In this document: piece after piece, positions 16,535-54,773 of the stretch
Position numbering within the stretch: the first letter of the stretch is position 1
How the letters are laid out: the number at the start of each line of letters is the position of its first letter
From: Candidatus Jettenia caeni
GTDB taxonomy: Bacteria; Planctomycetota; Brocadiia; Brocadiales; Brocadiaceae
NCBI GenBank assembly: GCA_000296795.1
Contig: BAFH01000003.1
Coordinates: forward strand, 496,401-560,400
Direction: 5' to 3'
DNA: 64,000 nt
Program-made: the position numbers and the translations under genes
The notes under the pieces: generated by a model
Database searches by the model: none
What the model was told of the DNA's origin: nothing
What the model saw: only the letters and a program-made list of their open reading frames with translations

Positions 16535-17347
16535 ATGGACAATAATTTGAATTTAGTATTTGGGAAAAAATGCTTTTCTCTTTCTTTTTTAGACAGGGAA
16601 ATGGAAGAGGCAATGAAGGGATGTATTTATCTCTCAAAGACCACGCGAAAGCATGATTATTTGTTTAAAATAGGATATCAGAATAATGGAGATATAGTTA
16701 AAGATTGCGAATTTCTTTATTTTAAAGGGGAAAAATGGTGTAGCTATATTTCTAAAGACGATGAAATTCAGATACTTTTTCCAAAGAATAATACTTTTTC
16801 AAATCCCATACGTATCCTTGCGTTTTTATATAGTGCATTTTATAAATTGGGGCATATTGATGGAAGAGGAAATAATAGCTTTTTGATTCACGCTGCAGGT
16901 TTACTAAGGCAAGGAAAGGGTTTTATCTTTACTGGAGAATCCGGAGCAGGCAAGACTACTGTTTCAAAGTTATCTTCTCCTGAGGCCGAAATTCTTTCTG
17001 ATGAATCAATTGTAGTATCTGAAGATCATGGAAATTATTGGATATCACAAGGGCCGATAAGGACTGAAATAACAAAGTTAAATGATACAATGGTAAATCT
17101 TTGTGCTATTTTTATCTTAGTACAAGACAAAATAAACTCATTAAGAAGGTTAAGTGGGGCAGAGATGGGCCATAAACTCATGGATAATATTATTTATTTA
17201 AATCTTTCTGCGGGTACCAAGAGGTTAGATTTCTTTGCAGAAAAATTGAGATTTGTTAATGCTATTAGTAATTGTGTACCTGTATATGAATTAAGATTTA
17301 CTAAAGATAAAACTTTTTGGAAAGAAATTGAACGTATAGGTCTTTAA
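16535..17347 (+). CDS. HPr-kinase-like P-loop protein of the peptide cassette
   Basis: 270 residues. The C-terminal half matches the HPr kinase/phosphorylase fold: LIHAAGLLRQGKGFIF leads into P-loop GESGAGKT (134-141), then ILSDE (153-157) in the metal-binding position. The N-terminal half (1-110) is not recognised. Proteins of this type accompany PqqD-like proteins in exopolysaccharide-linked HPr-rel-A systems, and PadeK-type relatives phosphorylate the C-terminal Ser of lasso-peptide precursors. A serine kinase acting on the peptide encoded at 19006, whose last residue is Ser, is inference. First gene of the cassette; the PqqD-like gene follows after 68 bp. Confidence 0.8.
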   Translation: MDNNLNLVFGKKCFSLSFLDREMEEAMKGCIYLSKTTRKHDYLFKIGYQNNGDIVKDCEFLYFKGEKWCSYISKDDEIQILFPKNNTFSNPIRILAFLYSAFYKLGHIDGRGNNSFLIHAAGLLRQGKGFIFTGESGAGKTTVSKLSSPEAEILSDESIVVSEDHGNYWISQGPIRTEITKLNDTMVNLCAIFILVQDKINSLRRLSGAEMGHKLMDNIIYLNLSAGTKRLDFFAEKLRFVNAISNCVPVYELRFTKDKTFWKEIERIGL

Positions 17348-17415
17348 GAAGGATAGCATTTTAAGGGTTTAAGTAATCAAAAATAGGTCCCTCGTTAATT
17401 ACTAAGGAATATTCT

Positions 17416-17694
17416 ATGATTGTGAAAAGTAAATTTCCCTGCCGTGATGAGCAATGTATGTGGCGGGTTGTAGAGAACGAAGCTATTATTTTCTCTGAAG
17501 AAGGACAATGGCTTCATCAATTAAATGATATGGGAACTGAAATTTGGAATATGTGTGATGGGACATTAAATTTTACAGAAATCACTGATAAAATATGTGA
17601 TAAGTTCGATGTTGAAAGAGAAGTAGCCGAGGCGGATATCCAATCCTTTATTGATGAACTTTCTAAAAAGGGATTAATTACGTTAAAAGAATAA
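17416..17694 (+). CDS. PqqD-family RiPP recognition element protein
   Basis: 92 residues with the PqqD fold: an N-terminal beta wing (EEGQWLHQLNDMGTEIWNMCDG) followed by helices ending in VAEADIQSFIDELSKKGLI. PqqD proteins bind leader peptides and present them to radical SAM enzymes. The Shine-Dalgarno AAGGA sits 8 nt before ATG. It lies between the kinase-like gene and the radical SAM gene, as expected of a peptide chaperone for the downstream precursor. Confidence 0.88.
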   Translation: MIVKSKFPCRDEQCMWRVVENEAIIFSEEGQWLHQLNDMGTEIWNMCDGTLNFTEITDKICDKFDVEREVAEADIQSFIDELSKKGLITLKE

Positions 17695-17808
17695 TGAATT
17701 ATTTAGAACGAAGTGTATGAAGAAGATACTAAAAAGCTTAGTTTTTGCCAAATATCTTTAATTTTGTGTACTTTACTGGCCAAATAATTACAAAAAGTAG
17801 GATACAAT

Positions 17809-18870
17809 ATGCAAGAAAACATGATAGATCAAATTCAGCAAAAATATTTTGATCGTAATCTTCCTTGGATAGTTCATTGGGAGCTAGTCTACGGATGTAA
17901 TTTAAAATGCCAGCATTGTTATACCTTTCATGAAGAAAGAAAGAACTATCTCTCTCTACCTCAAATGGCAAAAATAATCCAGCAGTTAAAGGAGATGGGA
18001 ACGGTGTTTTTGACACTGTCCGGAGGAGAACCTTTTGTGAGAGATGATATTATGGATATCATCGAGATGGTGCGTAAGGATTTTTTTGTGATTATCCTTT
18101 CAAACGCTACATTAATTGATTCTTTCAAGGCGAGAAGATTGAAAGAGCTTAGTGTAACTCAAGTAGAGGTAAGTCTTTATGCTATGGATGAGAAGATCCA
18201 TGATTCGATAACAGGCATAAAAGGATCGCATGTGCAAACAATAGAGGGGATACATCGTTTAAAGGAAGCAGGAGTGAGTGTAAGGATAAAATGCACTATA
18301 ATGGAACAGAACTACGCAGAATATACTAAAATAGGAGATTTTGCAAAAAAGTTAGGAATTCGTTTTTCCTCAAGTCCTGTTGTAAGTCCTCGGTTAGATG
18401 GGTCTCAGGATACCTATGAATATTGTACCGAACCAGAAAATCTTCGATCGTATTTTTTACAATGGGGAAAAGAGAATAAAGAAAAATATAAAGATTTTAA
18501 AGAATCGCCTTCTGTTCCTTTAGATAAATCATTTATTTGTAGCGCTGGCCGTACGTCTTGCGCTATAACACCTGATGGATATCTTAAACCTTGTACAATG
18601 CTTCCTGTAAAATTGGGAAACTTACTTGAGAAGAGCTTTAAAGAATTATGGCAAGTTAAACCAAAAAGACTTGTAAAAGATATCAGAGATGCTAAGATGA
18701 GCGATTTTTCTAGTTGTAAGGATTGCAAGTGGAGTCATTTATGTTCACCGTGTCCAGGTGTGAATTACCTTGAGACTGGTAATATGTTTACTGTGGCTGA
18801 AGGATATTGTAATAAGGTGAAATCTATCATGAATGAATTAGATATAGAAAGTAACGTAGGGAAGCATTGA
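17809..18870 (+). CDS. Radical SAM/SPASM peptide-modifying enzyme
   Basis: 353 residues. The SAM-cluster motif CNLKCQHC (Cys30, Cys34, Cys37) is followed by LSGGEPF. The C-terminal third is a SPASM-type auxiliary-cluster domain: CSAGRTSCAITPDGYLKPC, then CKDCKWSHLC, SPCPG and a final YC, giving enough cysteines for two extra FeS clusters. Such enzymes make thioether or C-C crosslinks in RiPPs, mature heme d1, or form PQQ. Given the adjacent PqqD-like gene and Cys-rich peptide, peptide thioether or crosslink formation is the best inference. The Shine-Dalgarno AGGAT precedes ATG. Confidence 0.92.
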   Translation: MQENMIDQIQQKYFDRNLPWIVHWELVYGCNLKCQHCYTFHEERKNYLSLPQMAKIIQQLKEMGTVFLTLSGGEPFVRDDIMDIIEMVRKDFFVIILSNATLIDSFKARRLKELSVTQVEVSLYAMDEKIHDSITGIKGSHVQTIEGIHRLKEAGVSVRIKCTIMEQNYAEYTKIGDFAKKLGIRFSSSPVVSPRLDGSQDTYEYCTEPENLRSYFLQWGKENKEKYKDFKESPSVPLDKSFICSAGRTSCAITPDGYLKPCTMLPVKLGNLLEKSFKELWQVKPKRLVKDIRDAKMSDFSSCKDCKWSHLCSPCPGVNYLETGNMFTVAEGYCNKVKSIMNELDIESNVGKH

Positions 18871-18906
18871 GCATAGTCAGTAAAATCTTATCGGAATTTA
18901 ATGATA

Positions 18907-18943
18907 GATCATTTTTAACGGAAAAATGATCACACGCAATAAA
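18907..18943. repeat. Left arm of inverted repeat flanking the precursor peptide
   Basis: The segment 18917-18943 is matched by the reverse complement of 19211-19238 at 26 of 28 aligned positions, including a 15-bp identical core AAAATGATCACACGC. The arm also contains its own perfect hairpin, GATCATTTTT (18907-18916) and AAAAATGATC (18922-18931), with loop AACGG. Confidence 0.8.
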
Positions 18944-19005
18944 TAATTGAAATACTTATTTAAGCCTGATAGTGGTTATAAAAGCGCCCAGAAAGGAGCG
19001 AAAAT

Positions 19006-19170
19006 ATGGAGAATTTAAAAGTATCAACAAAGCAAAGTTACAAGAAACCTTCGATTAAGTCTGAGCAATTAGAGATGAATGTATTGGCAAATCATGGTGC
19101 TACATGTTGTTGTTCTGGAAAATCACAGAGTAGCTTTATTCAAAACGCTGTAAGCAACTGGGTAAGCTAA
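19006..19170 (+). CDS. Candidate RiPP precursor peptide with Cys-Cys-Cys core
   Basis: 54-residue peptide read directly from the sequence, with strong Shine-Dalgarno AGGAG (18994-18998) 7 nt before ATG. The leader is basic and contains KKPSIKSEQLEMNVLANHG, which resembles the KPxIKxE-type leaders found next to PqqD/radical SAM enzymes. The presumed core runs from about residue 32: ATCCCSGKSQSS and a C-terminal stretch ending NAVSNWVS. Cys34-36 are the only cysteines. It lies 135 bp after the radical SAM gene and 207 bp before the S26 peptidase, enclosed by an inverted repeat. The peptide modification and cleavage sites are unknown. Confidence 0.82.
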   Translation: MENLKVSTKQSYKKPSIKSEQLEMNVLANHGATCCCSGKSQSSFIQNAVSNWVS

Positions 19171-19210
19171 TTTTTAGCCATTATTCGGGCGATAAGTGTT
19201 TTGGTTAATT

Positions 19211-19244
19211 TTTATTGGCGTGTGATCATTTTCCCGTTAAATGA
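19211..19244. repeat. Right arm of inverted repeat flanking the precursor peptide
   Basis: Reverse-complement partner of 18909-18943. Its internal palindrome is weaker (TCATTT/AAATGA) than that of the left arm. Arms are 267 bp apart and enclose only the peptide gene with its ribosome binding site. Confidence 0.8.
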
Positions 19245-19377
19245 GAAATTCCGTTAAGGTAGTAAATTTAGAGATAATCGTAGTAATATATAAGTATCCC
19301 CAAGGTAATCTTCCCTGCAAACTTGTGCTGATAATTTAACATATATCCAAAATACCATACTTAGCAATTTTCACGTC

Positions 19378-19965
19378 ATGGACTTACAAGAAAAATTATT
19401 GTATGAATTGGGTGAAGAGTACATAAAAGAAAAAGGAAAGATGTGGATGAAAGTGGTTTCTCCTAGCATGATGCCTTTAATCCATATTGGTGATAAAGTA
19501 TTGGTTAAATCGATTGAATGTGAGGCAGTAAGTACAGGAGATATTATCATTTTTAAAGGGAATGATATTCCGTTTATTACTCACAGGATAATAAGAAAGC
19601 GAAAGATAAATGGTGAGTTGCATTTTTTTGAAAAAGGTGATAAAAACGTATCCGGTACATGGATACATAAAAAATCTATTATAGCAAGGGTGATTGCTAT
19701 AAAAAAAAGAGATAATAGTATTATCATGTTAAACAAAACGAAAAGGATGAGAATTATTAATAAGCTTTTTACTGTATATCAATTAAATGCTTATATATTC
19801 GAAAGGATAATAAAGGTTTTTAAGGATTGGGTTAAAGGCTATAAAGCCTTAAACTTCCTTAGAGAACCGTATCGATATTCCTACAAGATTATTACAAGAG
19901 GGCAAAATCTTTGTAAAAAGTTATTGGTTCTCATACTTATTAAAGGAATGAGATTGTATGGGTAA
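19378..19965 (+). CDS. S26-type signal-peptidase-like protease without N-terminal anchor
   Basis: 195 residues. The catalytic serine box SPSMMPL (Ser30) is followed by GDKVLVKS and GDIIIFK, and the second box reads THRII with His69, the SipW/archaeal pattern (Ser-His) rather than the Ser-Lys of LepB. The N-terminus has no membrane helix, unusual for a signal peptidase; a basic C-terminal region (about 115-195) is not recognised. Its position between the peptide gene and wza makes it a candidate leader peptidase for the peptide, or a processing enzyme of the EPS locus. It overlaps wza by 8 bp. Confidence 0.78.
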   Translation: MDLQEKLLYELGEEYIKEKGKMWMKVVSPSMMPLIHIGDKVLVKSIECEAVSTGDIIIFKGNDIPFITHRIIRKRKINGELHFFEKGDKNVSGTWIHKKSIIARVIAIKKRDNSIIMLNKTKRMRIINKLFTVYQLNAYIFERIIKVFKDWVKGYKALNFLREPYRYSYKIITRGQNLCKKLLVLILIKGMRLYG

Positions 19966-20809
19966 TATATTTTCTATAAGAATCTTACGTGTAATTTTCA
20001 ATTTTATAGGTTTGTTTTATCTGCTATCTTTAAGTCTGTATGCTGAAGATCTCCTCGATAAGGAATATATTATAGGTCCTGAGGATATTCTTGAAATTAA
20101 GGTTTGGGATAATGAAGATTTAAATAGTATTGTCGAAGTCTCACAGGAAGGGACTTTTACCTTCCTTCTTATTGGAAGAGTCCAAGCAAATGGCCTGTCG
20201 GTCTTCGAGCTTGAAGATATTATTGAGAAGAAACTGGCTGATGGTTATCTCGTTTCACCTCAGGTAACTATTACGGTAAAAGAATATAACAGCCGAAAGG
20301 TATTCGTCCTTGGTGAAGTGAATAAACCAGGAAGTTATCCTTTAAAAGGGAATACCCATATATTAGGGCTGATATCACAAGCTGGAGGTGTTACAGCCAG
20401 CGCAGGGCAAACAGTTACTATCGTGCGCCCCAGGTTGCTCCACCAAAGTGGAAAGATTGGTTCCAAGGAAAGTAAAGAAAACGAGATTATTACACTTGAT
20501 TTAGGCGATTTTGATGCTAACAGCAAGCATGATACCTTTGTTGTAGCTAATGGCGACTCCATTTACATTAACCGAGCACCACGAGTTTTTGTAATAGGAG
20601 AAGTCCAAAGTCCAGGTGAGTTGAAATGGGAAAGAGGATTGACAATCCGTCAAGCCATATCTCTTGCAGGAGGGTCTACTGAAAAGGCGTCGCCTAAACG
20701 CGTGATAGTTATTCGTATGAAAAATGGTGTGGAAAAAGAGCTTAAACCGAAGATGGATGAATTTGTATTGCCAGGTGACATTATTAAGGTTCCTGGACGT
20801 TATTTCTAA
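19958..20809 (+). CDS. Wza-like polysaccharide export protein
   Basis: 283 residues. After an N-terminal hydrophobic export signal (about 5-29) comes the polysaccharide export domain (YIIGPEDILEIKVW, about 38-51), then two SLBB-type repeats (RKVFVLGEVNKPGSYPL and RVFVIGEVQSPGELKW). It forms the outer part of the Wzx/Wzy-type export channel with Wzc. It overlaps the S26 peptidase gene and is 25 bp upstream of the Wzc-like gene, so all three are likely one transcript. No lipobox was identified with confidence. Confidence 0.9.
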   Translation: MGNIFSIRILRVIFNFIGLFYLLSLSLYAEDLLDKEYIIGPEDILEIKVWDNEDLNSIVEVSQEGTFTFLLIGRVQANGLSVFELEDIIEKKLADGYLVSPQVTITVKEYNSRKVFVLGEVNKPGSYPLKGNTHILGLISQAGGVTASAGQTVTIVRPRLLHQSGKIGSKESKENEIITLDLGDFDANSKHDTFVVANGDSIYINRAPRVFVIGEVQSPGELKWERGLTIRQAISLAGGSTEKASPKRVIVIRMKNGVEKELKPKMDEFVLPGDIIKVPGRYF

Positions 20810-20834
20810 TTTCTTAAAATAGTAAGGATACTTT

Positions 20835-23411
20835 GTGGATAAAAAAATGAGCCTTGGATTTGTGCCAGACCATATATCATTTTCACGACAAGTACATCTA
20901 ACAGACTATCTTAATATCATCAGAAAACGTAAATGGGTAGTCATTGTTTTCTTTTTAGTTGTGGTTTCTATAGTTAGTTTCATATCATTTTCTACCACAC
21001 CTGTCTATAAAGCCACTGCACAGATCATTATTGAACAGAGGTCCCCATTTGTAGATAAGATAACGGGAGTTATGAATGTAGATCCTAATAATAGAGACGA
21101 TTACCAAACACAATATAATTTATTAATGAGTAGGAGCCTTGCAAAAAATGTTATCGAAGATTTAAAATTATGGAAGGAATTTGGTATCGATGAAATTCAA
21201 AATCCAAATTCTTCAACTTTACCTGTCGGTGTGTCTCGTGATTCTTTGATTTCGTCAAGCATTGACACCTCCGCCTCAAATATTCCGGTATCAGGGATAT
21301 CAGCTACACCCTATCCAACTTGGATTGTAGATTGGTATTTATCAAAGCTTGAGATTGTACCTCTTCGCGAAACACATCTGGTCTATATTAGCTTCTTAAA
21401 CGAATCACCTGAAAAGGCTGCACGTATAGCCAATGCACATGTCCGGGCATTTATCGCAAGAACCGTTCAGGAGCAGCGTTCATTCTCACAGCAAGCGATA
21501 GATTGGCTTAAGGCACAGATTCGAGGGCAAAAGATTAAAGTAGGAACATCCCAGCGTGCAGTTTACGAATACAAATATGAGCAACTTGAGTCATTTTCTA
21601 TCGATGACAAAAATATTTTTGCATTACCGGAAATTATGCAAAGCCCTGTTATTCAAGATCTTCGTGCTAAATTAGCAGAGCTTAAGGCTAGGAAATTAGA
21701 GATGATTACCAAGTATGGTCCTAAGCATCCGAAGATGATTGAGATTAATTCCAGTATTGAGAAATTAGAGCAAGGAATTATTGACGAGGTGCAAACTGTA
21801 AGGAAGACAATCAAAGCAGAGTTAGACCGGATTGTAGCCCTTGAAAAAATAGCTCAGCAAAAAGGGGCTGTAGCTTATAACGAAAAGGCTATTAACTATG
21901 ATATGTTGTCTCTGGATGCTGAAAGTGATCAAGAGATGTATGATATTCTGCTCAAGCAGGCAAAGGAGATTAGTCTTACCGGCAATATGGAGAAGAACGA
22001 CATCCGGGTTGTGGATGAGGCTGAGGTACCACTTTTTCCAGTTAAGCCGAAGATATTTTTAAATATCTTTGTATCTGCAGTGCTAGGTTTGACATTTGGT
22101 GCAGGGCTTGCCTTCTTCCTCGAGTATATGGATAAAACGGTGAGAACCCCTGAAGATATCGCACAACGGCTTGGTTTACCAATGCTTGGGATGATACCTT
22201 ATGATAAATCCCTAAAAAAAGGCAAAGTTCTTGCTTTGCAAGGTAATGAATCTCATCGCAATCAAAATAAACTTAAAGGTGTTTATACCCAATATGATGT
22301 TTCAGGAAGTTTTGTTACGAGATTACCATTGATGCAAGCAGGAATGTCTGGTCAGGTGCTTTTGATAGAAAGTACAACTAGTGGTGAGGGTAAAACTACT
22401 GTTTTGGCAAAATCAGCAATAAGTCTGGCAAGGGGTGGACTACGTGTACTTATGGTAGACGCTGATGTGCAAAGACCATCATTGCATCATTTATTTGGTT
22501 TAAAGAATGATGAAGAAAATGGATTGATTAATGCGATGTCCCGAGTGCTGTTACAGGAAATACGGCAGGGCTCTTTAAATAAGTATAGTGTGAGTGATCT
22601 TTTTTCTCTTCTTGCCCTTAAAAAACAAAGTGGACAACTTGTCATTACTAATGATTCTCAAACTATGACTGCTATCTTTGAGAACGGTTGCCTTATTCAC
22701 ATCCAGAGCCAGGATATTCCTTTTGCTAATCGTTTAGGAACTATGCTGCTACGGGGAGGTTTTATTACAGAAAGTCAGTTAAAAGATGCTATAGAGAGAA
22801 ATCATCGTACGGGACAACCGTTAGGATACATCCTTATTAATGCCGGATATATTAATCAAGCTCAATTACAAGGACCTTTAAAGTTGCAAATGGAGGAACA
22901 CCTCCAGAAACTTTTTAGTTGGAAACAAGGTACTTTTGTTTTTGAACCAGGTAGTGTGGAGAGATACGAAGATAAAAGAATTTATTTTGCAGAGGATTAT
23001 ACATCAATTATCAATCGTTTAGGCCGTATCTCAGGAAGTCGATTACTGGAAAGTGAGGTCCTCTCTCATGTGAAACCTGTTAATGAACCAAATTTATCAC
23101 TCTTACCTGCGGGCATAGGGGATACAAGACCTGATGGTCCGCTCTATTTTACCCTTCTCTCAAAATTCCTGACTCTTCTGAAACAAAGGTACGATGTAGT
23201 CCTTGTGGATGCCCCGCCTTTATTAGATTTTATGAACGGTGTAACGCCTTTACTTTCATTAGTTGACGGTGTAATTTTTATTGTTAAATCAGGACATGTA
23301 TCTATCGATTATATCAATAAGGCCACTAGCTGCATAAAAGATGCAAAAACTAATATCATTGGTGCTGTCCTGAATCAAGCAAAAATAAGGCATGGGTATT
23401 ATTATAAATGA
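20835..23411 (+). CDS. Wzc-like chain-length determinant/tyrosine kinase with inserted DUF4388-like domain
   Basis: 858 residues. It has a Wzz domain with membrane helices near 33-52 and 405-430 and coiled coil between, then a BY-kinase: Walker A TSGEGKTT (about 515-522), Walker A-prime LMVDADVQRP (about 539-548) and Walker B VVLVDAPP (about 788-795). Unlike normal Wzc, about 200 residues separate A-prime from Walker B. They contain a DUF4388/PATAN-like module (about 579-706: SDLFSLLALKKQSGQL, LGTMLLRGGFITESQL, LGYILINAGYINQAQL, KLFSWKQGTFVFEPG). The C-terminus has only a short Tyr cluster (GYYYK). GTG start with AAGGA 6 nt upstream. Confidence 0.9.
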   Translation: MDKKMSLGFVPDHISFSRQVHLTDYLNIIRKRKWVVIVFFLVVVSIVSFISFSTTPVYKATAQIIIEQRSPFVDKITGVMNVDPNNRDDYQTQYNLLMSRSLAKNVIEDLKLWKEFGIDEIQNPNSSTLPVGVSRDSLISSSIDTSASNIPVSGISATPYPTWIVDWYLSKLEIVPLRETHLVYISFLNESPEKAARIANAHVRAFIARTVQEQRSFSQQAIDWLKAQIRGQKIKVGTSQRAVYEYKYEQLESFSIDDKNIFALPEIMQSPVIQDLRAKLAELKARKLEMITKYGPKHPKMIEINSSIEKLEQGIIDEVQTVRKTIKAELDRIVALEKIAQQKGAVAYNEKAINYDMLSLDAESDQEMYDILLKQAKEISLTGNMEKNDIRVVDEAEVPLFPVKPKIFLNIFVSAVLGLTFGAGLAFFLEYMDKTVRTPEDIAQRLGLPMLGMIPYDKSLKKGKVLALQGNESHRNQNKLKGVYTQYDVSGSFVTRLPLMQAGMSGQVLLIESTTSGEGKTTVLAKSAISLARGGLRVLMVDADVQRPSLHHLFGLKNDEENGLINAMSRVLLQEIRQGSLNKYSVSDLFSLLALKKQSGQLVITNDSQTMTAIFENGCLIHIQSQDIPFANRLGTMLLRGGFITESQLKDAIERNHRTGQPLGYILINAGYINQAQLQGPLKLQMEEHLQKLFSWKQGTFVFEPGSVERYEDKRIYFAEDYTSIINRLGRISGSRLLESEVLSHVKPVNEPNLSLLPAGIGDTRPDGPLYFTLLSKFLTLLKQRYDVVLVDAPPLLDFMNGVTPLLSLVDGVIFIVKSGHVSIDYINKATSCIKDAKTNIIGAVLNQAKIRHGYYYK

Positions 23412-23516
23412 AATGAATAAAGAAATACTGCTTGAGAAAAGATGCTTGACCATGAGATATTTTTTGCTAAAGTTGTTAAGTCTTAAAGTGGCCAGTACCG
23501 TTTATAGGGATCTAAA

Positions 23517-24560
23517 TTGCCTTACTGTATAGAGACATATAATCTTACAAAAAGATATCCAGTAATAAAAGGATATGGCGATATACTCTTGCATCCTTTT
23601 AGAAAGAAGGCTATTACAGCGCTTAATAATGTAAACATTCAGATAAAAAAGAATGAGTTGTTTGGCCTTCTGGGTCCAAACGGTGCAGGAAAAACTACCC
23701 TGATAAAGATCCTTTGTACACTGGTTCTTCCTACATCAGGAAGAGCACTTGTTAATGGCTTGGATGTTGAAAAGGATGGGAAGAAGATAAGAAAAATAAT
23801 AGGCTATGTTATAGGTGATGAGAGAAGCTTTTATTGGAGGCTTACAGGAAGACAAAATCTTAGATTCTTTGCAAAACTCAACAATATTTCTCACAAGGAA
23901 GCTGATCAGAAGATCAAGAATTTACTGGAGTTTATGGAACTTACACGCGATGCAGACAGAATGTTTAAAGATTATTCTACTGGCATGAGGCAAAAATTGG
24001 CAATAGCCAGAGGGTTGCTTACAAATCCTGAGATTATTTTTATGGATGAACCAACGAGTGGATTAGACCCTATTACTGCCCAAAAATTAATAAGGTTTAT
24101 AAGGGAAAAATTAGTTGGAGAGGAAGGGAAGACAGTAATATTTGCAACTCATAATTTGCATGAAGTTGAGGTACTATGTGACCAGATTGCTATCGTTAAC
24201 GGAGGAAAGGTAAAAATTGCAGGTGCCGTAAAGGAAATAAAAAAGATGTTCCATTCAGAGAAAAGGTATGTAATAAAATTGAAGAGTGCAAAAAATAGTT
24301 TAGTAAGCAAGATTCAAAATATAGCTATCGCTAATAAAGTTACAACTATACCTGATGATATTACACCTGATAGAATCCAAATCGAATTTGAGGCTTTATC
24401 TGACAATGGGAATATATTCCAGATGGTTAAAGAACTAGTAGATATGGGCAGCGAGATAAGCTCCTTTTACGAAAAAGAAATTTCATTAGGAGAACTATTT
24501 TCAAGAGTTATAGATACCGGAAATAGTACTATGTCATTGCACACTATGGCTAAAATTTAA
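23517..24560 (+). CDS. ABC-2-type exporter ATP-binding protein
   Basis: 347 residues. Walker A GPNGAGKTT, signature STGMRQKL, Walker B IIFMDEPTSGLDP and the switch histidine in ATHNLHE are all intact. A C-terminal extension (about 235-347) is typical of NodI/DrrA-like drug and polysaccharide exporters. It starts at TTG with GGGA 6 nt upstream. The permease gene follows 33 bp later. Cargo could be the modified peptide of the upstream cassette or a glycan; the sequence does not decide. Confidence 0.9.
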   Translation: MPYCIETYNLTKRYPVIKGYGDILLHPFRKKAITALNNVNIQIKKNELFGLLGPNGAGKTTLIKILCTLVLPTSGRALVNGLDVEKDGKKIRKIIGYVIGDERSFYWRLTGRQNLRFFAKLNNISHKEADQKIKNLLEFMELTRDADRMFKDYSTGMRQKLAIARGLLTNPEIIFMDEPTSGLDPITAQKLIRFIREKLVGEEGKTVIFATHNLHEVEVLCDQIAIVNGGKVKIAGAVKEIKKMFHSEKRYVIKLKSAKNSLVSKIQNIAIANKVTTIPDDITPDRIQIEFEALSDNGNIFQMVKELVDMGSEISSFYEKEISLGELFSRVIDTGNSTMSLHTMAKI

Positions 24561-24593
24561 TTTTACTATCCGGCATTTTAAACTTACATTATT

Positions 24594-25409
24594 ATGAATA
24601 AATTGATAGGAAAATCGCTTGCTTTTGTTTGGAGAGATTTTATAAACCAGACAAGCTACAAGTTTTCATTTTTTATGCAATTTTTTGGCATATTCATATC
24701 AATCTTAACGTTTTTCTTTCTTTCAAGGCTTATAGGGGATGTTGGAGTATCATATCTCAAACCATACGGAGGGAATTATTTTTCGTTCGTTCTTATTGGA
24801 ATTGCATTATTTAGCTATATTGGAGTATCAATAGAGGCTCTCTCAACAAGTATTAGAGAAGGGCAGATGCTTGGTACCTTAGAAGCCTTGTTAGTAACTC
24901 AAACAGAGATTCCAACTATCATACTTTCTTCTTCTCTTTATAGTTTTATACTTGCATCTTTCAAAGTAGCAATGTATTTACTCTTAGGAGTTTTTATATT
25001 CGGTATAGATATAAGTAGTGCAAACCTAATAGGAGCTTTGCTTGTTCTGTTTCTCACAATTGTCTCTTTTAGCAGCTTTGGAATATTATCTGCTAGTTTT
25101 GTTATGGTATTAAAGAAAGGAGATCCAATAAGCTGGATATTTACTAGCATTTTTGGAATTTTAGGAGGACTTAACTATCCTATTTCTGTCCTACCTAATT
25201 GGCTTCAAAAATTATCTTATTTATTACCCATTACTTATTCCCTGGAAGGAATGAGATTAGCCTTATTAAAAGGATGTTCTTTACGTGCATTAATGCCAAA
25301 TATAGTAGCATTAATCATTTTTTCATTTATAATGCTGCCACTAAGTCTTTTTGTTTTTGGATATGCCGTTAGAAGGGCAAAGATAGATGGAACTCTGACA
25401 CAGTATTAA
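24594..25409 (+). CDS. ABC-2-type exporter permease
   Basis: 271 residues with about six membrane helices and the ABC-2 conserved features (EGQMLGTLEALLVTQ coupling segment, LSYLLPITYSLEGMRLALL before the last helices). It is the partner of the ATPase encoded 33 bp upstream. The cargo is unknown. Confidence 0.9.
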   Translation: MNKLIGKSLAFVWRDFINQTSYKFSFFMQFFGIFISILTFFFLSRLIGDVGVSYLKPYGGNYFSFVLIGIALFSYIGVSIEALSTSIREGQMLGTLEALLVTQTEIPTIILSSSLYSFILASFKVAMYLLLGVFIFGIDISSANLIGALLVLFLTIVSFSSFGILSASFVMVLKKGDPISWIFTSIFGILGGLNYPISVLPNWLQKLSYLLPITYSLEGMRLALLKGCSLRALMPNIVALIIFSFIMLPLSLFVFGYAVRRAKIDGTLTQY

Positions 25410-25802
25410 TTTTAAATGTCTATTTCAAAATCAAGGCAGTTGAGAAAATAAGAATGCTGCAGTTATTTTAAAACAAGATTGTATTTGAAAGTAATATAAG
25501 GCTTGTGTTTCGTTACTAAAGAGGCCATATCTTTTACATTGATTTCTTCGTATTACCTGTGAAAGTACAAGCTGAATAGTGATGATTACCAAGAGAGGAG
25601 GTCAGCCTTTCCCAACACTATTGCTGTTTAACAATGTATTAGTTTGGCTTATTACTATAGATGTGTTTGTTTTAGATAAGGTATGTAACCGGAAGTATCA
25701 CATGATATAGTATGCCACACTAATTACTACATACTATTTTGCTGAGCCAACTCAATGCTCATTTTACTTCATTACAAATTAAGGGGGCGATAAAATAGCG
25801 AT
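25410..25802. other. Intergenic region without recognised features
   Basis: 393 bp of AT-rich sequence between the ABC permease and the dehydratase-like gene. No gene, strong hairpin or promoter could be supported. It marks a break between two transcription units. Confidence 0.5.
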
Positions 25803-26942
25803 ATGAAAGACTTTTATAAAGGTAAAAGGGTTCTTATAACAGGTGCTGCCGGAACCGTTGGAAGAGAAGTTGCAAGACAACTACTCTTCCTCATGCCTGC
25901 TGAAATTAGGCTTGTGGACAACAACGAGTCAGAAATGTTCTTTCTTATGGAAGAGTATAAAAATAAAAATGTCTTCTGTTTTCTTGGTGATGTAAGGGAT
26001 AGGGAAAAGATAGAGAAGCTTTCATATGATATAGATATTATTATCCATTGTGCCGCCTTCAAACATGTTATTCTTTCTGAGTATAATTCCTTTGATGTCG
26101 TGCGGACGAATATCATAGGAGTTGAAAATATTATTGGCGCAGCAAGGAATTGTAATGTTAAAAATGTTCTTTTCACAAGCAGTGATAAAGCTGTAAACCC
26201 TACGAATGTAATGGGTACATCAAAACTTATGGGTGAGAGGCTTATAACAGCAACAAATGCTGTAAAGAGTAATAATCATGGTATTTTCAGCAGTACAAGG
26301 TTTGGTAACGTTATAGGCTCAAGAGGTTCTGTTGTCCCGTTATTCGTGAAACAAATAAAGAATGGAGGCCCTGTTACCGTTACCGATAAGAGGATGACCC
26401 GTTTTATTATGACAATAGAAGAGTCTGCAAGACTAGTTTTAAAATCTGTTACCCTTTCAAAAGGCGGGGAGGTCTTTGTAACAAAGATGCCCATAGTGAG
26501 AATTCCGGATCTTGCTGAAGTTATGATAGAGGTTCTTGCGCCTTGGTATGGTTATAAACCATCTGATATAAAGATTATAGAAATTGGTGCAAAACCTGGT
26601 GAAAAATTATATGAAGAGCTTATGAGTGAAGAAGAAGTCCATCGTTCTTTAGAATTAAAGGACATGTTTGTAATTACACCGGCATTTAAATCTATATATG
26701 GAGACATAAAATATGAATATCCTGATTTTGTCTCTAATCAATTACGAAAATCTTACGTATCTGTTAATGAACAACCCATGAGTAAAGACGACATTAAAAA
26801 GTACTTAATGGACAATAAGATCTTAGAGAATGTTGACAATAGTTTCCCTGGAATAAAAGAACCTTTAAACAAGAATATTATGGAAGACATCTTGGATAAC
26901 AAAGAGAAGTTAAATAAAAATTTCTCTGGGAGTGTTATATGA
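25803..26942 (+). CDS. FlaA1/CapD-like nucleotide-sugar dehydratase/epimerase
   Basis: 379 residues, short-chain dehydrogenase fold. NAD-binding GAAGTVGREVARQL near the N-terminus is followed by HCAAFKHV and SSDKAVNPTNVMGTSKLMGER. The catalytic position holds Met-x3-Lys (MGTSK) rather than Tyr-x3-Lys, as known for FlaA1/PseB/CapD-type C6-dehydratases acting on UDP-GlcNAc. Likely supplies a deoxy or epimerised sugar for the exopolysaccharide. The next gene's ATG overlaps its stop. Confidence 0.85.
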   Translation: MKDFYKGKRVLITGAAGTVGREVARQLLFLMPAEIRLVDNNESEMFFLMEEYKNKNVFCFLGDVRDREKIEKLSYDIDIIIHCAAFKHVILSEYNSFDVVRTNIIGVENIIGAARNCNVKNVLFTSSDKAVNPTNVMGTSKLMGERLITATNAVKSNNHGIFSSTRFGNVIGSRGSVVPLFVKQIKNGGPVTVTDKRMTRFIMTIEESARLVLKSVTLSKGGEVFVTKMPIVRIPDLAEVMIEVLAPWYGYKPSDIKIIEIGAKPGEKLYEELMSEEEVHRSLELKDMFVITPAFKSIYGDIKYEYPDFVSNQLRKSYVSVNEQPMSKDDIKKYLMDNKILENVDNSFPGIKEPLNKNIMEDILDNKEKLNKNFSGSVI

Positions 26943-28087
26943 GAGTTTTAATATTAGGCGCTGATGGATATCTTGGCTGGCCTACTTGTATGTATTTTTC
27001 TCAACGCGGGCATGAGGTTATAGGAGTAGATAATTACTTCAGGCGTAATGCCGCAGTAGAGCTTGATTGTGAGCCATTACTACCAACACCAAATTTGATT
27101 CAAAGGGCAAAGGTTTGGGAGGAACTTACCGGTAAAAAGATCAATATCCATATTGGTGATGCAACCAATTATACCTTTCTTCTCCAAATATTTAAAGAGT
27201 ATAAGCCCGAGGCTGTTATCCATTATGCGGAGCAGCCGTCTGCTCCTTACTCGATGATAAACCGAGATAAGGCAGCTTTTACCCTTCAGAATAATCTTGT
27301 GAGTACCTTGAATATTGTATATGCAGTTAAAGAAACCAATCCAGACTGCCATATAATAAAACTTGGTACCATGGGAGAATATGGCACTCCTAATATCGAC
27401 ATCGAAGAGGGTTGGCTGGAAATAGAACATAAAGAGAGAAAAGACAAATTCCTTTTTCCAAGACAAGCAAGTTCCCTTTATCATACAACAAAGGTACAAG
27501 ATACGGATATGCTTTGGTTTTATGTAAGGACATGGGGTATTAGAGTGACCGATCTGATGCAGGGGCCTGTTTATGGTATTTCTACTGATGAGGCAGACAT
27601 CGACTCTCGATTGGTGCCCAATTTTAATTATGATGAGATATTTGGGACAGTTCTGAATCGCTTTATTGTTCAAGCCATAGCTAATTATCCCCTCACAGTT
27701 TATGGTAAAGGAGGACAGATAAGGGGATATTTAAATCTGAAGGATACTATGCAGTGTGTTTATCTTTCCGCAACACAACCAGCTAAAAATGGAGAATTAA
27801 GGATTTTCAATCAGGTAACAGAGACCTTCAGCGTTAATGAATTAGCTGATAAAGTTTACACAGTTGGAAAAGAACTTGGCTACAATATTAAGGTTGATCA
27901 TATAGAAAATCCAAGAAAGGAAAAAGAAGAGCATTATTATAATCCGAAATACACTGGATTATTAGAACTTGGATTGAAACCTAATTACCTGACCGATGAA
28001 GTACTTGCAGGGATATTCAGAGTAGTTGAGCGATATAAAGATCGAATAAATAGAGAAGCAATTTTTAGAGGCATAAAATGGAAGTAA
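26939..28087 (+). CDS. SqdB/SQD1-like NAD-dependent sugar-nucleotide enzyme (UDP-sulfoquinovose synthase family)
   Basis: 382 residues. The NAD motif is GADGYLGW. Throughout its length it follows plant SQD1: GDATNYTFL, EQPSAPYSMI, KLGTMGEYGTPNIDIEEG with the catalytic Thr, SSLYHTTK with the Tyr-x3-Lys pair, QGPVYG, YGKGGQIRGYLNLKDT and EEHYYNPK. SQD1/Agl3 joins sulfite to UDP-glucose to give UDP-sulfoquinovose. The close motif match supports this family, but related epimerases exist and the substrate is inferred. It is coupled to the upstream dehydratase by an ATGA overlap. No SqdX-type transferase is adjacent, so the sugar would go into the polysaccharide rather than a sulfolipid. Confidence 0.82.
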   Translation: MRVLILGADGYLGWPTCMYFSQRGHEVIGVDNYFRRNAAVELDCEPLLPTPNLIQRAKVWEELTGKKINIHIGDATNYTFLLQIFKEYKPEAVIHYAEQPSAPYSMINRDKAAFTLQNNLVSTLNIVYAVKETNPDCHIIKLGTMGEYGTPNIDIEEGWLEIEHKERKDKFLFPRQASSLYHTTKVQDTDMLWFYVRTWGIRVTDLMQGPVYGISTDEADIDSRLVPNFNYDEIFGTVLNRFIVQAIANYPLTVYGKGGQIRGYLNLKDTMQCVYLSATQPAKNGELRIFNQVTETFSVNELADKVYTVGKELGYNIKVDHIENPRKEKEEHYYNPKYTGLLELGLKPNYLTDEVLAGIFRVVERYKDRINREAIFRGIKWK

Positions 28088-28114: not shown

Positions 28115-29248
28115 ATGTGGGATATCTACGAGAGGGTTCTTTTTAAGTTTTTACTCTATTATCAACTAAGAAAAATACTATACATGATACAGGGAATAAA
28201 GGAATTTTATACACCGCTTGAATTACTTAACTTATACTACTCAAATGGCCAGTGTGGAGGGAATAGGAGAAACAAACTATGGCAAAAAATGAATTCTCTT
28301 CTTTCGTGGGATAATCTTTTAAATCATGGTTACCAATGGGATTTGTGCCCTCTGCTGTTCTTTATCATCTCAAAGGCTTTACCTAAAATAAATAACTCAA
28401 TTCTTCAGCAGGATCAGGGAAAAACATGTCCTAAATCTATTTCATCTAAACTCCAGGAGTATTACCAACGCAGTCTTATAAGAAATATGATTTTGGTGGA
28501 TGAATTAAAACGAATAGTTCTGGAATTAAAAGAGAATAACATCGAAGTTGCTACTCTAAAAGGGGGTTTTTTGGCTGAGAATGTGTATAAAGATATTGCC
28601 TGCCGACCTATGGGAGATTTGGATATTTTAATTAAAGATAAAGACAAAGAGAAATGCTATAAGATACTTTTAAATATGGGTTACGAGAATGTGGTGGAAA
28701 GCGCTCAAATACAGATGTTACACAGAAGTTTTTGCAAGAAAGTTAGGATGATGCCAGTAAACATTGAGATACATCACTATCTCGTTAAAGAGGTATTTAT
28801 TCCAAAGTTTAACGTTGAAAATGTTTTTTTTGATAAAAATATTCCTCTTGAATATAATTTGATTTATCTTTCCTGCCATGGAATAAGGCACGGTCTTTAT
28901 AGGTTTTTGTGGCTTTGTGATCTTGCAGAAATTATTAAGAATAATAAGGAATTGATAAATTGGGATAAAGCCTACAAAAAAAGCATAGATTATAATATTC
29001 AAAAACAGTTTCTATTTACTATGCACCTAACTACTATCCTCCTCTTGCCAACATTTTCAGGGATGAGCAACTTCTCATATAAGTATCTTTTACCGTATAT
29101 TTCTGAATTATTATTTATAAGAATACAAAAAAAAATACTAAATCATGCTGATGAAAAAAGATTGAGACATTTATTAAGCATATGCATGATGAAGATAAGT
29201 GATCTAAAAGCTTTTTTCCAAAGATACATTCAATACAGAAAGATGTAA
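28115..29248 (+). CDS. PF14907-like nucleotidyltransferase-fold protein
   Basis: 377 residues. The central segment TLKGGFLAENVYKDIACRPMGDLDILI carries the GDLDILI acidic pair of the nucleotidyltransferase fold and matches the uncharacterised NTP_transf_5 family, followed by INIEIHHYL-type residues (PVNIEIHHYL). Such proteins recur in exopolysaccharide loci beside HPr-kinase-like and PqqD-like genes, as here. Substrate is unknown. It follows the SqdB-like gene by 27 bp. Confidence 0.78.
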   Translation: MWDIYERVLFKFLLYYQLRKILYMIQGIKEFYTPLELLNLYYSNGQCGGNRRNKLWQKMNSLLSWDNLLNHGYQWDLCPLLFFIISKALPKINNSILQQDQGKTCPKSISSKLQEYYQRSLIRNMILVDELKRIVLELKENNIEVATLKGGFLAENVYKDIACRPMGDLDILIKDKDKEKCYKILLNMGYENVVESAQIQMLHRSFCKKVRMMPVNIEIHHYLVKEVFIPKFNVENVFFDKNIPLEYNLIYLSCHGIRHGLYRFLWLCDLAEIIKNNKELINWDKAYKKSIDYNIQKQFLFTMHLTTILLLPTFSGMSNFSYKYLLPYISELLFIRIQKKILNHADEKRLRHLLSICMMKISDLKAFFQRYIQYRKM

Positions 29249-34640: not shown

Positions 34641-36524
34641 TTGAATATTTTCTTCATTTTATTTATAGTTGTTGCAAGTTTATGTTGTAATTATTCTTTA
34701 TGTAAGCAAGATTTTGCCTATGGGAATTTCTATTATGTTGATTCAAATAAGGGCGATGATGGAAATATAGGAGACTTATCTGCTCCCTGGAGAACGATAA
34801 AAAATAGTGTTTCGGGATTACAACCGGGAGATACCCTCTATCTCAGGGGTGGAACTTATTATGAGAGTCAAATTAAAATTAGTAATCAAGGGACTAAATC
34901 GAAAAAAATTATCATAAAAAATTATCCCGATGAATCGCCAATTATTGATGGAGGTTATGCAGAGTTTAGAATAGTTCCCAATTCTGATTGGGAGATTCAC
35001 GATGCTAAGAAAAATATATATAGGTCGGTAAAAACTTATTCTTCTGCAGATTATGTCTATGGATATTTTGGGCCCGATAATAATTGTCGCCTTATCTCTT
35101 ATGAAAGTTATCATGATCTTAGCGCAGAGAATGAAGATTATACTGCTGTTGGTGATGTTTATCTCGGTCCCGGCATATTCTGGAATAGTTCTAATGAGAA
35201 GATATATATCAGGCTGAAGCCCAGTAAGCAACAAATGGCTATGGGGCATACTACTCCATCGAACAATGATCCGCGTCTTACAAAGATGTTTATTTTTTCT
35301 CATCATGAAATAATCATTTTAAGCAAGAAGTCCTCTTACATCGATATTGAAGGTGTTAATCTTAGGTATCAAAATAATGCTTTTGAATTTAAATCAGGGT
35401 CAAATAATATTCTTATAAAGAACTCAAATGTGTTAGGTGGCAGGACGCATATTTATGTAAATGACAACGCCCACGACCTTGTCTTTGATGGTGTTAAGAT
35501 TGAAGATTCTGTTCCTCCCTGGATTGCCTGGACTGATGTGAAAAGGGGTAAAAAACCAGCGCACCGTTTTCAAGGGACTGCAATATCGATAGAGGGTTCA
35601 GCGCATGATATAGAGATCAAGAATTGTATATTCGAAAATACCTGGGATGGAATTAATGCTACTAGCTCAGCATTTGACCTCCACATCCATGATAATGTAT
35701 TCAAGGGTACCCGGGATGATGTAGTTCAGTTAGGGTCCGGCTGCTCTGATGTTGAGATCAATCACAATAAAATGATCCTCGTTTCAAAAGGGATTTCCAG
35801 GCATGGATCAGGTTCTTCTCCTAAACCAGGGACAAAGTATATCCATCATAATATTATTGATTGCAGTAAGCCAATGCTCGGTGGAAGACGTGATCCAAAT
35901 AATTTACTTCTAGAAAAATATCAAAAATATCATGGTCCGAATGATGATGGGATGGTATGGGCGCGTCCATTTGGTAGCCACAGGAGTGGTGGATATGGCG
36001 GGGGTGATCCATGGAAGATATACCATAACACCATTATCTTTGGGAAGGAATTGAATGATAGGGGAGCAGGGCATGAATATGTTCTCGAATCTTTTTATCC
36101 GGGGTATCCCCAGGAGGTTTATAACAATATCATCATTCAGACGATGGATCATTGGCTGGCTAGAGATTGCAGGGTGGCAGATGGTTCACAGATATGTGAT
36201 GGGAATATCTACTATCGCTCGGTAGCCGGACCTAAGAACTATTTTTTTAGATCATGGGCGGAGAGATTGGGTGGCAGCTCAAAAGATTTCAAAAGCCTTT
36301 CTGCGTTTAAATCATCACCACTCTTTGATGTTTCCAGGAAATATTATGCACCTGGCTGGGAGAAGAATGGAACAGAAGCTAATCCTCAATTAGATAAAGA
36401 TTACTATCCTGCCCCTGACGGTCCTGCGGCAACTGGTGCTATACCGTTACCATCTAGTTGGCCTGGTCAGGACGGTAAAAAATATCGTGGAGCATTGCCT
36501 CCTAAGAACTTGAATATAAAATGA
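34641..36524 (+). CDS. Secreted right-handed beta-helix protein (paralogue A)
   Basis: 627 residues, TTG start followed by a signal peptide (about 1-20). NFYYVDSNKGDDGNIGDLSAPWRTIKNSVSGLQPGDTLYLRGGTYYESQI is the DUF1565-type opening of pectate-lyase-like parallel beta-helices; repeated short His/Asn-rich turns follow (NNILIKNSNVLGG, HDIEIKNCIFENTW, YIHHNIIDC). The C-terminal third is nearly identical to that of the minus-strand protein encoded at 39582-41483. It may be a polysaccharide lyase, epimerase or matrix protein of the EPS locus. Unlike its paralogues it has no riboswitch upstream. Confidence 0.82.
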   Translation: MNIFFILFIVVASLCCNYSLCKQDFAYGNFYYVDSNKGDDGNIGDLSAPWRTIKNSVSGLQPGDTLYLRGGTYYESQIKISNQGTKSKKIIIKNYPDESPIIDGGYAEFRIVPNSDWEIHDAKKNIYRSVKTYSSADYVYGYFGPDNNCRLISYESYHDLSAENEDYTAVGDVYLGPGIFWNSSNEKIYIRLKPSKQQMAMGHTTPSNNDPRLTKMFIFSHHEIIILSKKSSYIDIEGVNLRYQNNAFEFKSGSNNILIKNSNVLGGRTHIYVNDNAHDLVFDGVKIEDSVPPWIAWTDVKRGKKPAHRFQGTAISIEGSAHDIEIKNCIFENTWDGINATSSAFDLHIHDNVFKGTRDDVVQLGSGCSDVEINHNKMILVSKGISRHGSGSSPKPGTKYIHHNIIDCSKPMLGGRRDPNNLLLEKYQKYHGPNDDGMVWARPFGSHRSGGYGGGDPWKIYHNTIIFGKELNDRGAGHEYVLESFYPGYPQEVYNNIIIQTMDHWLARDCRVADGSQICDGNIYYRSVAGPKNYFFRSWAERLGGSSKDFKSLSAFKSSPLFDVSRKYYAPGWEKNGTEANPQLDKDYYPAPDGPAATGAIPLPSSWPGQDGKKYRGALPPKNLNIK

Positions 36525-39581: not shown

Positions 39582-41483
39582 TTATGGTGTTTGTGGAGGT
39601 AGTGCTCCCCGGTATCCTCCACCATCGAGACCAGGCCAACTAGATGGTAATGGTATAGCACCAGTTGCCGCAGGACCGTCAGGGGCAGGATAGTAATCTT
39701 TATCTAATTGAGGATTAGCTTCTGTTCCATTCTTCTCCCAGCCAGGTGCATAATATTTCCTGGAAGCATCAAAGAGTGGTGATGATTTAAACGCAGAAAG
39801 GCTTTTGAAATAGTATGAACTGCTTCCTAATTTCTCCTCCCACGATCTAAAAAAATAGTTCTTAGGTCCGGCTACCGAGCGATAGTAGATATTCCCATCA
39901 CATATCTGTGAACCATCTGCCACCCTGCAATCTCTAGCCAGCCAATGATCCATCGTCTGAATGATGATATTGTTATAAACCTCCTGGGGATACCCCGGAT
40001 AAAAAGATTCGAGAATATATTCATGCCCTGCCCCCTTACCATTCAATTCCTTCCCAAAGATAATGGTGTTATGGTATATCTTCCATGGATCGCCTCCGCC
40101 AAACTCAATACCCTGGTGCCGTCCAAATGGACGCGCCCATACCATCCCATCACCATTCGGACCATGATATTTTTCTGAGAGTACATCATCCGGATCACGT
40201 CTTCCACCGAGCATTGGCTTACTGCAATCAATAATATTATGATGGATATACTTTGTCCCTGGTCTGAGCGGTGAACCTGACCCCTCCCGGGAAACCCCTT
40301 TTGAGACAAAAAGCAACTTATTATGATTGAACTCAATATCAGAGCAGCCAGACCCTAACTGAACCACATCATCCCGGGTACCCTTGAATACATTGTCGTG
40401 GATATGGAGATTGTATGCTGTCTCGTTTGCATCAATTCCATCCCAGGTATTTTCGAATATACAATTCTTGATCTCTATATCATGCGCTGAATCTTCTATC
40501 GATATTGCAGTCCCTTGAAGACTATGCCCGGGCTGGGTACCACATTTGACATCACTCCAGGCAATCCAGGGAGGAACGTTATCAGAGACATGAATACCAT
40601 CAAGAACAATATCACGAACATCGCCACGGATCATAATAGGTGTCCTACCACCTGCTATTTCCATATTCTTAAGAGTAATATGATCTGACCCGGATTCAAA
40701 TTCAAAGACATTATTCTGATATCTTGCGTTAATACCTTCAATGCTTATATAAGAACTTGATGGTCCAAAAGTGATAATCTCATGGTCTGAAAAGATATAC
40801 ATGGGTGTAGAACGAGGATCGGTGTTGGATGGGATATTGTATCCCATAGCAATTTCCTGCTTACTGGGCTTTAGTCTGATATAGATCTTTTTATTAGAAC
40901 TATTCCAGAATATACCGGGGCCGATATAAATACTGCCAGACCTGGTATAATCTTCGTTACTTGCCCGAAGATCATCATAATCTTCGTAAGGAACAAGGCG
41001 ATAGTTATCGTTTCCGCTTCCAAAATACCCATAAATTTCCCTTGCGTTAGGGTATGTCTTTACCGACCTGTATATTCCTTTTGAAGAATCGTATACCTCC
41101 CACTGAGCGTTAGGGGTTGATCTAAATTCCTTGTAGCAACCATCAATGGCAACCGACTCATCAGCATAATTTTTTATGGTAATCCAATTTGATTTTTCTC
41201 CATGATTATTAATTTCAATTTGACTTTCATAGTAAGTTCCGCTCCTGAGATAGAGGGTATCGCCTGGTTGTAATTTTTCGATGCTCTTTTCTATGGTCTT
41301 CCAGGGATTAGATAAACTTCCGCTGTTTGAATCATTACCATTTGTTGCAACATAATACGTATCTGCCAGACATCTTTCGTTTGCTGATAAAAAAAAGGTT
41401 GAGGTTAAGCTTACAAAAGATATGAAAATGGAAAGAGAAAAAACGGGGAGATTCAGTACTTTTTGAATATGGGATAGTAACAT
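39582..41483 (-). CDS. Secreted right-handed beta-helix protein (paralogue B), c-di-GMP riboswitch controlled
   Basis: 633 residues. Signal peptide (about 1-40), then TYYVATNGNDSNSGSLSNPW, the DUF1565-type start of a parallel beta-helix, with repeats such as DHITLKNMEIAGG, HDIEIKNCIFENTW and YIHHNIIDC. It is a mosaic: residues 1 to about 147 are almost identical to paralogue C (44594-46495), while the last about 160 residues are almost identical to paralogue A (34641-36524). Shine-Dalgarno AAGGAGG is 7 nt before ATG and overlaps a predicted sequestering stem. A glycan lyase or epimerase, or a structural matrix protein, is possible; catalytic residues cannot be assigned by eye. Confidence 0.85.
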   Translation of the reverse strand: MLLSHIQKVLNLPVFSLSIFISFVSLTSTFFLSANERCLADTYYVATNGNDSNSGSLSNPWKTIEKSIEKLQPGDTLYLRSGTYYESQIEINNHGEKSNWITIKNYADESVAIDGCYKEFRSTPNAQWEVYDSSKGIYRSVKTYPNAREIYGYFGSGNDNYRLVPYEDYDDLRASNEDYTRSGSIYIGPGIFWNSSNKKIYIRLKPSKQEIAMGYNIPSNTDPRSTPMYIFSDHEIITFGPSSSYISIEGINARYQNNVFEFESGSDHITLKNMEIAGGRTPIMIRGDVRDIVLDGIHVSDNVPPWIAWSDVKCGTQPGHSLQGTAISIEDSAHDIEIKNCIFENTWDGIDANETAYNLHIHDNVFKGTRDDVVQLGSGCSDIEFNHNKLLFVSKGVSREGSGSPLRPGTKYIHHNIIDCSKPMLGGRRDPDDVLSEKYHGPNGDGMVWARPFGRHQGIEFGGGDPWKIYHNTIIFGKELNGKGAGHEYILESFYPGYPQEVYNNIIIQTMDHWLARDCRVADGSQICDGNIYYRSVAGPKNYFFRSWEEKLGSSSYYFKSLSAFKSSPLFDASRKYYAPGWEKNGTEANPQLDKDYYPAPDGPAATGAIPLPSSWPGLDGGGYRGALPPQTP

Positions 41484-52799: not shown

Positions 52800-52861
52800 G
52801 GTTTTACCACAAAGATGTTGAGAACACAGAGAAAGATTCTTCTTCTAGACCTGAGATGAAC

Positions 52862-54628: not shown

Positions 54629-54773
54629 ATTGGATTGATAGTCTTTTAGAAAACACAAAAATTCTAAAATTATCTCTGTATTTTTATGAATTTATTTATA
54701 AAATATTTACATTATCATATATATCCTGAATTGTATATAATTAATTATTAAATAAAAAACCAGGAGTATTTAG

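Follow-up and report, generated by a model that had tools for sequence, protein, structure and literature searches.

A putative radical SAM and HprK-like kinase cassette with a three-cysteine precursor peptide at an exopolysaccharide locus of Candidatus Jettenia caeni

Genes at the locus

A 64,000-nucleotide stretch of Candidatus Jettenia caeni contig BAFH01000003.1 (the window) contains a cassette of five genes, all on the + strand, in the order HprK-like kinase, PqqD-like protein, radical S-adenosylmethionine (SAM) enzyme with a SPASM domain, 54-residue peptide with three cysteines, and S26-type protease (Table 1). A first-pass annotation of the window had described these genes at the same coordinates, a strong ribosome binding site at the 54-codon gene and a connection to exopolysaccharide synthesis, all of which are confirmed here. 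The cassette opens a Wza/Wzc/Wzx/Wzy-type exopolysaccharide locus, and the connection is real because exopolysaccharide genes follow directly downstream; genes further downstream include the NTP_transf_5 nucleotidyltransferase, Wzx-type and Wzy-like proteins, and a sugar transferase.

The peptide gene has a good ribosome binding site; AGAAAGGAGCGAAAAT precedes the gene and AGAAAGGAG lies a short way ahead of its ATG. The last residue is Ser, and the peptide matches no Pfam 2025 or NCBIfam 2026 family. The leader probably ends ...MNVLA (residue 28), with VLA ending 16 residues past Tyr12, giving the core NHGATCCCSGKSQSSFIQNAVSNWVS instead of the core beginning ATCCC that was first proposed.

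The kinase has no Hpr_kinase_C match, nor any significant match in a Pfam scan, and matches the NCBIfam ScmC/HprK_rel models weakly, below cut-off (E 3e-10 / 2e-5). An 11-sequence alignment of its family conserves the motifs H..G, Walker A G(E/K)SGAGKTT, and LSD(D/E), and the AlphaFold model from that alignment (pLDDT 80) matches phosphoenolpyruvate carboxykinase (PEPCK; 8e-8) and HPr kinase 1knx (4e-6) in Foldseek; the protein is thus predicted to take the HprK/PEPCK kinase fold. The PqqD-like profile matches structures of recognition elements with leaders, namely TbiB1 (5v1u, 2.5e-9), PbaB1 (9x90, 5e-7), and LppB (9x8z, 1.4e-6). The S26 protein scores 66.3 bits against TIGR02228 (signal peptidase I, archaeal type; cut-off 51.85), carries Ser30/His69/Asp88 by motif, and has no clear transmembrane segment by hydropathy.

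Table 1. Coordinates of the cassette, its surroundings and related open reading frames (ORFs). Entries beginning with L are in other genomes; RRE, RiPP recognition element, where RiPP is ribosomally synthesized and post-translationally modified peptide.
Feature	Position	Strand	Evidence or prediction
HprK-like kinase (ScmC/HprK_rel-related; PEPCK/HprK kinase fold)	16535..17347	+	predicted precursor kinase
PqqD-like discrete RRE	17416..17694	+	PF05402 E 5e-19
Radical SAM/SPASM maturase	17809..18870	+	PF04055 3e-24, PF13186 7e-11; CNLKCQHC motif and C-terminal Cys set
Long imperfect inverted repeat enclosing precursor gene	18914..19241 (arms 18914-18948, 19207-19241)	.	stem ~70 bp
Shine-Dalgarno-like AAAGGAG upstream of precursor	18993..18999 (approximate bounds)	+	sequence
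Precursor peptide, 54 aa	19006..19170	+	leader with YKKPSI RRE motif; C-terminal Ser
S26 archaeal/SipW-type signal-peptidase-like protein	19378..19965	+	TIGR02228; predicted leader peptidase
Adjoining exopolysaccharide genes	19958..28087	+	Wza-like export, Wzc-like kinase, ABC-2 transporter pair, Polysacc_synt_2 dehydratase, NAD epimerase
NTP_transf_5 nucleotidyltransferase	28115..29248	+	PF14907 E 2.5e-40; predicted tailoring enzyme, 8 kb downstream
CapD-HprK fusions	L041:9679-12510, L042:9740-12589, L038:3966-6794, L039:5573-8623, L040:7392-10436		
S26/NTP_transf_5 single ORFs	L047:4237-5898, L048:2757-4295, L050:4836-6467		

Conservation in the Brocadiaceae

Two congeneric genomes encode the same 54-residue peptide, without any substitution, at the syntenic locus, and of the 165 nucleotides 0 and 1 differ; the HprK and radical SAM genes of the more distant congener carry 37-43 changes, and neighboring genes have diverged by ~1-5% across the two. 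The radical SAM gene is intact in one congener (G001) and frameshifted in the draft of the other (G002, L022:10051-11110). In that draft the precursor is intact beside the frameshifted gene, and the frameshift may be an assembly error. A pair of cassettes occurs in Candidatus Kuenenia hertensis (G016) of the same family, and a separate homologous small ORF belongs to each, containing ...VYKKPSIASKQVDLPVMACTCSGSGSLSSFLQLATNNFNSGT and ...VYRKPEISSEQANLQALALCGPEGCGAGS.... A small ORF is thus conserved beside the cassette in relatives; its absence would have refuted the first-pass annotation, whose reading of the peptide as a RiPP precursor, modified by an RRE-dependent radical SAM/SPASM enzyme, is supported.

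Two further loci (G011, G009) encode a CapD-HprK fusion, PqqD, and a small ORF with the same leader and only one Cys; no radical SAM gene was found in the fetched locus, and none scored above threshold in the genome. Multi-Cys cores therefore go with the presence of the radical SAM enzyme, which fits a substrate relation, two cases being few. Across five Brocadiaceae loci the HprK-like domain is fused C-terminally to a CapD/Polysacc_synt_2-type sugar dehydratase; three of these have PqqD and a small peptide and two do not. G017 and G041 keep the fusion, and PqqD, radical SAM, and peptide genes were not found in the fetched stretch. A genome of the same order but another family (G027) has a close PqqD in an exopolysaccharide locus (L156:9662-9997) with no radical SAM enzyme, kinase, or visible precursor nearby. 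Weak peptide matches elsewhere in the order (G022, G033, and a second G000 site) were rejected as chance-like, given their weak E-values and the lack of cassette proteins beside those fetched.

A precursor family in several phyla

GTDB genomes were scanned with an alignment of the radical SAM enzyme, and 392 Planctomycetota and 285 Omnitrophota genomes were searched with profiles. The scan found cassettes of HprK, PqqD, and a small Cys-containing ORF in an unclassified bacterium, Lentisphaerae, Omnitrophica/Omnitrophota, WOR-3, and Nitrospirae, and close relatives of the radical SAM enzyme were found in 28 Planctomycetota and 68 Omnitrophota genomes. Precursors were sought with the pattern [K/R]..[Y/W]xxPx[hydrophobic]..Cys in ORFs of <=85 aa lying <=900 nt from the radical SAM gene; the pattern demanded a Cys, but neither a terminal Ser nor a count of three Cys. 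It matched at 8/8 loci of the homology scan (window included), 24/28 Omnitrophota loci (25/28 with L215 added by eye), and 11/25 Planctomycetota loci (9 accepted, L169 and L184 being rejected by eye), vs 4/73 control radical SAM loci. In most Omnitrophota cases a single short locus is matched by the HprK, PqqD, and S26 profiles together, and three cassettes with radical SAM and precursor genes have one ORF that holds both an S26-like and an NTP_transf_5-like region.

The 43 precursors mostly have a Lys-rich start, [Y/W]xxPx[I/V/L], and frequently a VLA-like stretch before the first Cys; the spacing from Tyr/Trp to the first Cys is 18 or 20 in 30/43, and 28/43 have exactly three Cys. The C-terminal residue is Ser in 30/43 and Ser or Thr in 36/43 (Ser in 27/40 after thinning to <55% identity), with a binomial tail of ~1e-17 at a core Ser frequency of 0.13, a p-value that is indicative only since the sequences are related. 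This conservation of the terminal Ser points to phosphorylation. The precursor in the window is a member of a widespread, uncatalogued tri-cysteine peptide family over several phyla, and the members tested had no significant NCBIfam or Pfam match. The system is therefore not unique to this genome.

A long inverted repeat encloses the precursor gene. Its arms (35 nt, 86%, plus an extension; extended region 18890-19262) are unique within the genome, and the fold as RNA has z -5.4. The ~70 bp stem and this z-score would suit a regulatory RNA or relic element, in which case the 54-codon ORF would be untranslated or no substrate and the enzymes would act on another substrate; we judge this extremely improbable, given the ribosome binding site, the near-zero change across three genomes, and the presence of a homologous ORF in the corresponding position of many cassettes without the repeat. 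All three congeners conserve the repeat, and K. hertensis cassette A has a weak form of it that shares ATCACACG in its arms. Its reading as a dispersed mobile repeat (miniature inverted-repeat transposable element) was rejected, as the arms are unique and the core motif does not behave as a repeated element among family members. Nor is it a general family trait, being strong in the three congeners only; one K. hertensis locus gives z 3.6, two further loci lie near z 3, and the remaining loci have none. As a guess outside the main claim, the repeat might serve RNase III processing of a separate precursor mRNA.

Comparison with known systems

Linear polyphosphorylated peptides (LPPs) are Bacillota RiPPs described in 2026 from capsule loci, whose clusters encode LppA with a YxxP leader, the RRE LppB, the HprK-like kinase LppK, and the NTP transferase LppN; LppS is an archaeal-type signal peptidase I with Ser/His/Asp that needs LppB, and the LppA consensus places the cut 15 residues past the Tyr (PMC13381572). 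The window cassette likewise encodes together an HprK-like kinase, a discrete PqqD-type RRE, and an archaeal-type signal peptidase I, shares the YxxP leader and the capsule/exopolysaccharide setting, and has an NTP transferase (PF14907), 8 kb away here and sharing an ORF with S26 in relatives. The protease residues are Ser29/His68/Asp93 in LppS vs Ser30/His69/Asp88 in the window, with a Ser-His spacing of 39 residues in both. The differences are a radical SAM/SPASM enzyme and a multi-Cys core in a host outside Bacillota (the word 'radical' is absent from the LPP text; PMC13381572), and a conserved Ser that is terminal, whereas that of LPPs is near the core N-terminus. The consensus YxxPxVLxHQxIxFETxxS is only partly present, as the window has YxxPxI without the VLxHQxIxFET part, and no MsbA-like exporter adjoins the cassette: an ABC-2 pair lies at 23517-25409, and the only MsbA-type pair (50991-54658) is encoded on the opposite strand. 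Lacking these last two features, the cassette is not placed inside LPP; it is best read as a radical SAM-containing, Cys-rich relative of LPP-type phosphorylated RiPPs.

In paeninodin clusters, HprK homologues phosphorylate the C-terminal Ser of the precursor (PMC8498205). The paeninodin/pseudomycoidin lasso peptides share with the window cassette the [Y/W]xxP leader and discrete RRE, and the window encodes putative counterparts of their HprK homologue, acting on the C-terminal Ser, and of their nucleotidyltransferase, acting on the phosphate (PMC8498205). Unlike them, it has a radical SAM enzyme, and no macrolactam synthetase (asparagine-synthetase-like) or B2 cysteine protease was found among the cassette and exopolysaccharide-locus ORFs scanned or read. 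The first-pass annotation had overlooked what the kinase and NTP_transf_5 imply, which would set the cassette beside the phosphorylated RiPPs (LPP, paeninodin).

SynChlorMet systems combine HprK-like, PqqD-like, and radical SAM/SPASM proteins as well, but the window proteins score far under the NCBIfam cut-offs (ScmC 40/125, ScmD 32/100, ScmE 115/400, ScmF 102/400) and the cassette has one radical SAM enzyme vs two models (ScmE, ScmF); SynChlorMet matches in the genomes that carry nine fetched loci all stay below cut-off. The GeoRSP models are also missed (PqqD 54.7/100, radical SAM 106/400 bits). A literature search for PqqD with HPr kinase/HprK and radical SAM found no report.

The radical SAM profile has SkfB as its nearest solved structure (4e-37), and a SPASM radical SAM enzyme beside a Cys-containing precursor is the arrangement of sactipeptides and ranthipeptides (SkfB, AlbA). 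The window enzyme differs in scoring under the AlbA cut-off (109/850) and in standing with a discrete RRE, kinase, and S26 protease. The match to SkfB, the Cys-rich core, and the CapD-like dehydratases that carry a fused HprK in genomes of the Kuenenia type would suit a plain radical SAM RiPP, the kinase and NTP_transf_5 belonging to polysaccharide synthesis and leaving the peptide untouched. We consider this rather unlikely: HprK, PqqD, and S26 directly adjoin the radical SAM and precursor genes in several phyla, terminal Ser is enriched (30/43), and the same gene set yields phosphorylated peptides in Bacillota (PMC13381572). The PqqD/PqqE-like enzymes, and a CCC motif that could bind metal, could alternatively indicate a cofactor precursor like those of pyrroloquinoline quinone (PQQ) or mycofactocin, or a copper- or iron-binding thiol peptide; this appears very unlikely, as PqqD scores 36.2 bits vs the PQQ equivalog cut-off of 46, the context is exopolysaccharide synthesis, and the widely varied cores behind a fixed leader suit a RiPP family of diverse products better than one cofactor.

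Predicted pathway

We estimate at roughly 70% the probability that the cassette makes a short, Cys-rich, phosphorylated RiPP with a link to the exopolysaccharide locus. What the sequences show directly is the set of genes and its co-conservation, and a family of precursors with a leader motif, three Cys, and Ser at the C-terminus. The PqqD-like RRE would bind the YKKPSI motif and present the precursor to the other enzymes; the SPASM enzyme would modify the Cys-rich core, in the simplest form by thioether cross-link(s); the kinase would phosphorylate a serine, most likely Ser54; the S26 (SipW-type) protease would cut off the leader after about Ala28; and NTP_transf_5 may load a sugar or nucleotide onto the phosphate. 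Both the order of these steps and their chemistry are inferred, the RRE, kinase, and protease roles by analogy.

Several points weigh against this pathway. Thr and Gly, not Ser, close the two precursors of K. hertensis, PqqD does not adjoin K. hertensis cassette A, and the Cys of CCC (window core) and CTC (K. hertensis) are spaced differently from those of the usual three-Cys core. The sequence similarity of the kinase to HprK is weak, and NTP_transf_5 is 8 kb from the cassette. A recognizable precursor lies <=1.5 kb from the radical SAM gene in only 9/25 Planctomycetota loci, although the scanned loci are short and absent neighbors there are no proof of absence.

Two observations concern the exopolysaccharide genes themselves. 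The Wzc-like bacterial tyrosine kinase (20835-23411) has DUF4388 inserted in its nucleotide-binding domain (Pfam 578-709 within CbiA 510-784), and three paralogous right-handed beta-helix proteins, 65-78% identical, are encoded in or beside the locus (34641-36524, 39582-41483, 44594-46495).

Significance

Genome annotation likely misses the precursors of this family because those tested match no NCBIfam 2026 or Pfam 2025 model. For the radical SAM, HprK-like, and S26 proteins, a widespread orphan set in uncultured bacteria, the family offers a substrate that can be tested. It would link two RiPP chemistries, radical SAM modification and phosphorylation, a pairing not found in the literature searched. 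A bolder proposal, unlikely to hold as a whole, is an undescribed RiPP class of Planctomycetota, Omnitrophota, Lentisphaerae, Nitrospirae, and WOR-3, in which the C-terminal Ser phosphate of a radical SAM-modified tri-Cys peptide would be joined to sugar or exopolysaccharide as a peptide-polysaccharide conjugate of the biofilm matrix. Anammox granules depend on extracellular polymer; among the candidate components of their matrix would be a modified peptide produced along with the polysaccharide.

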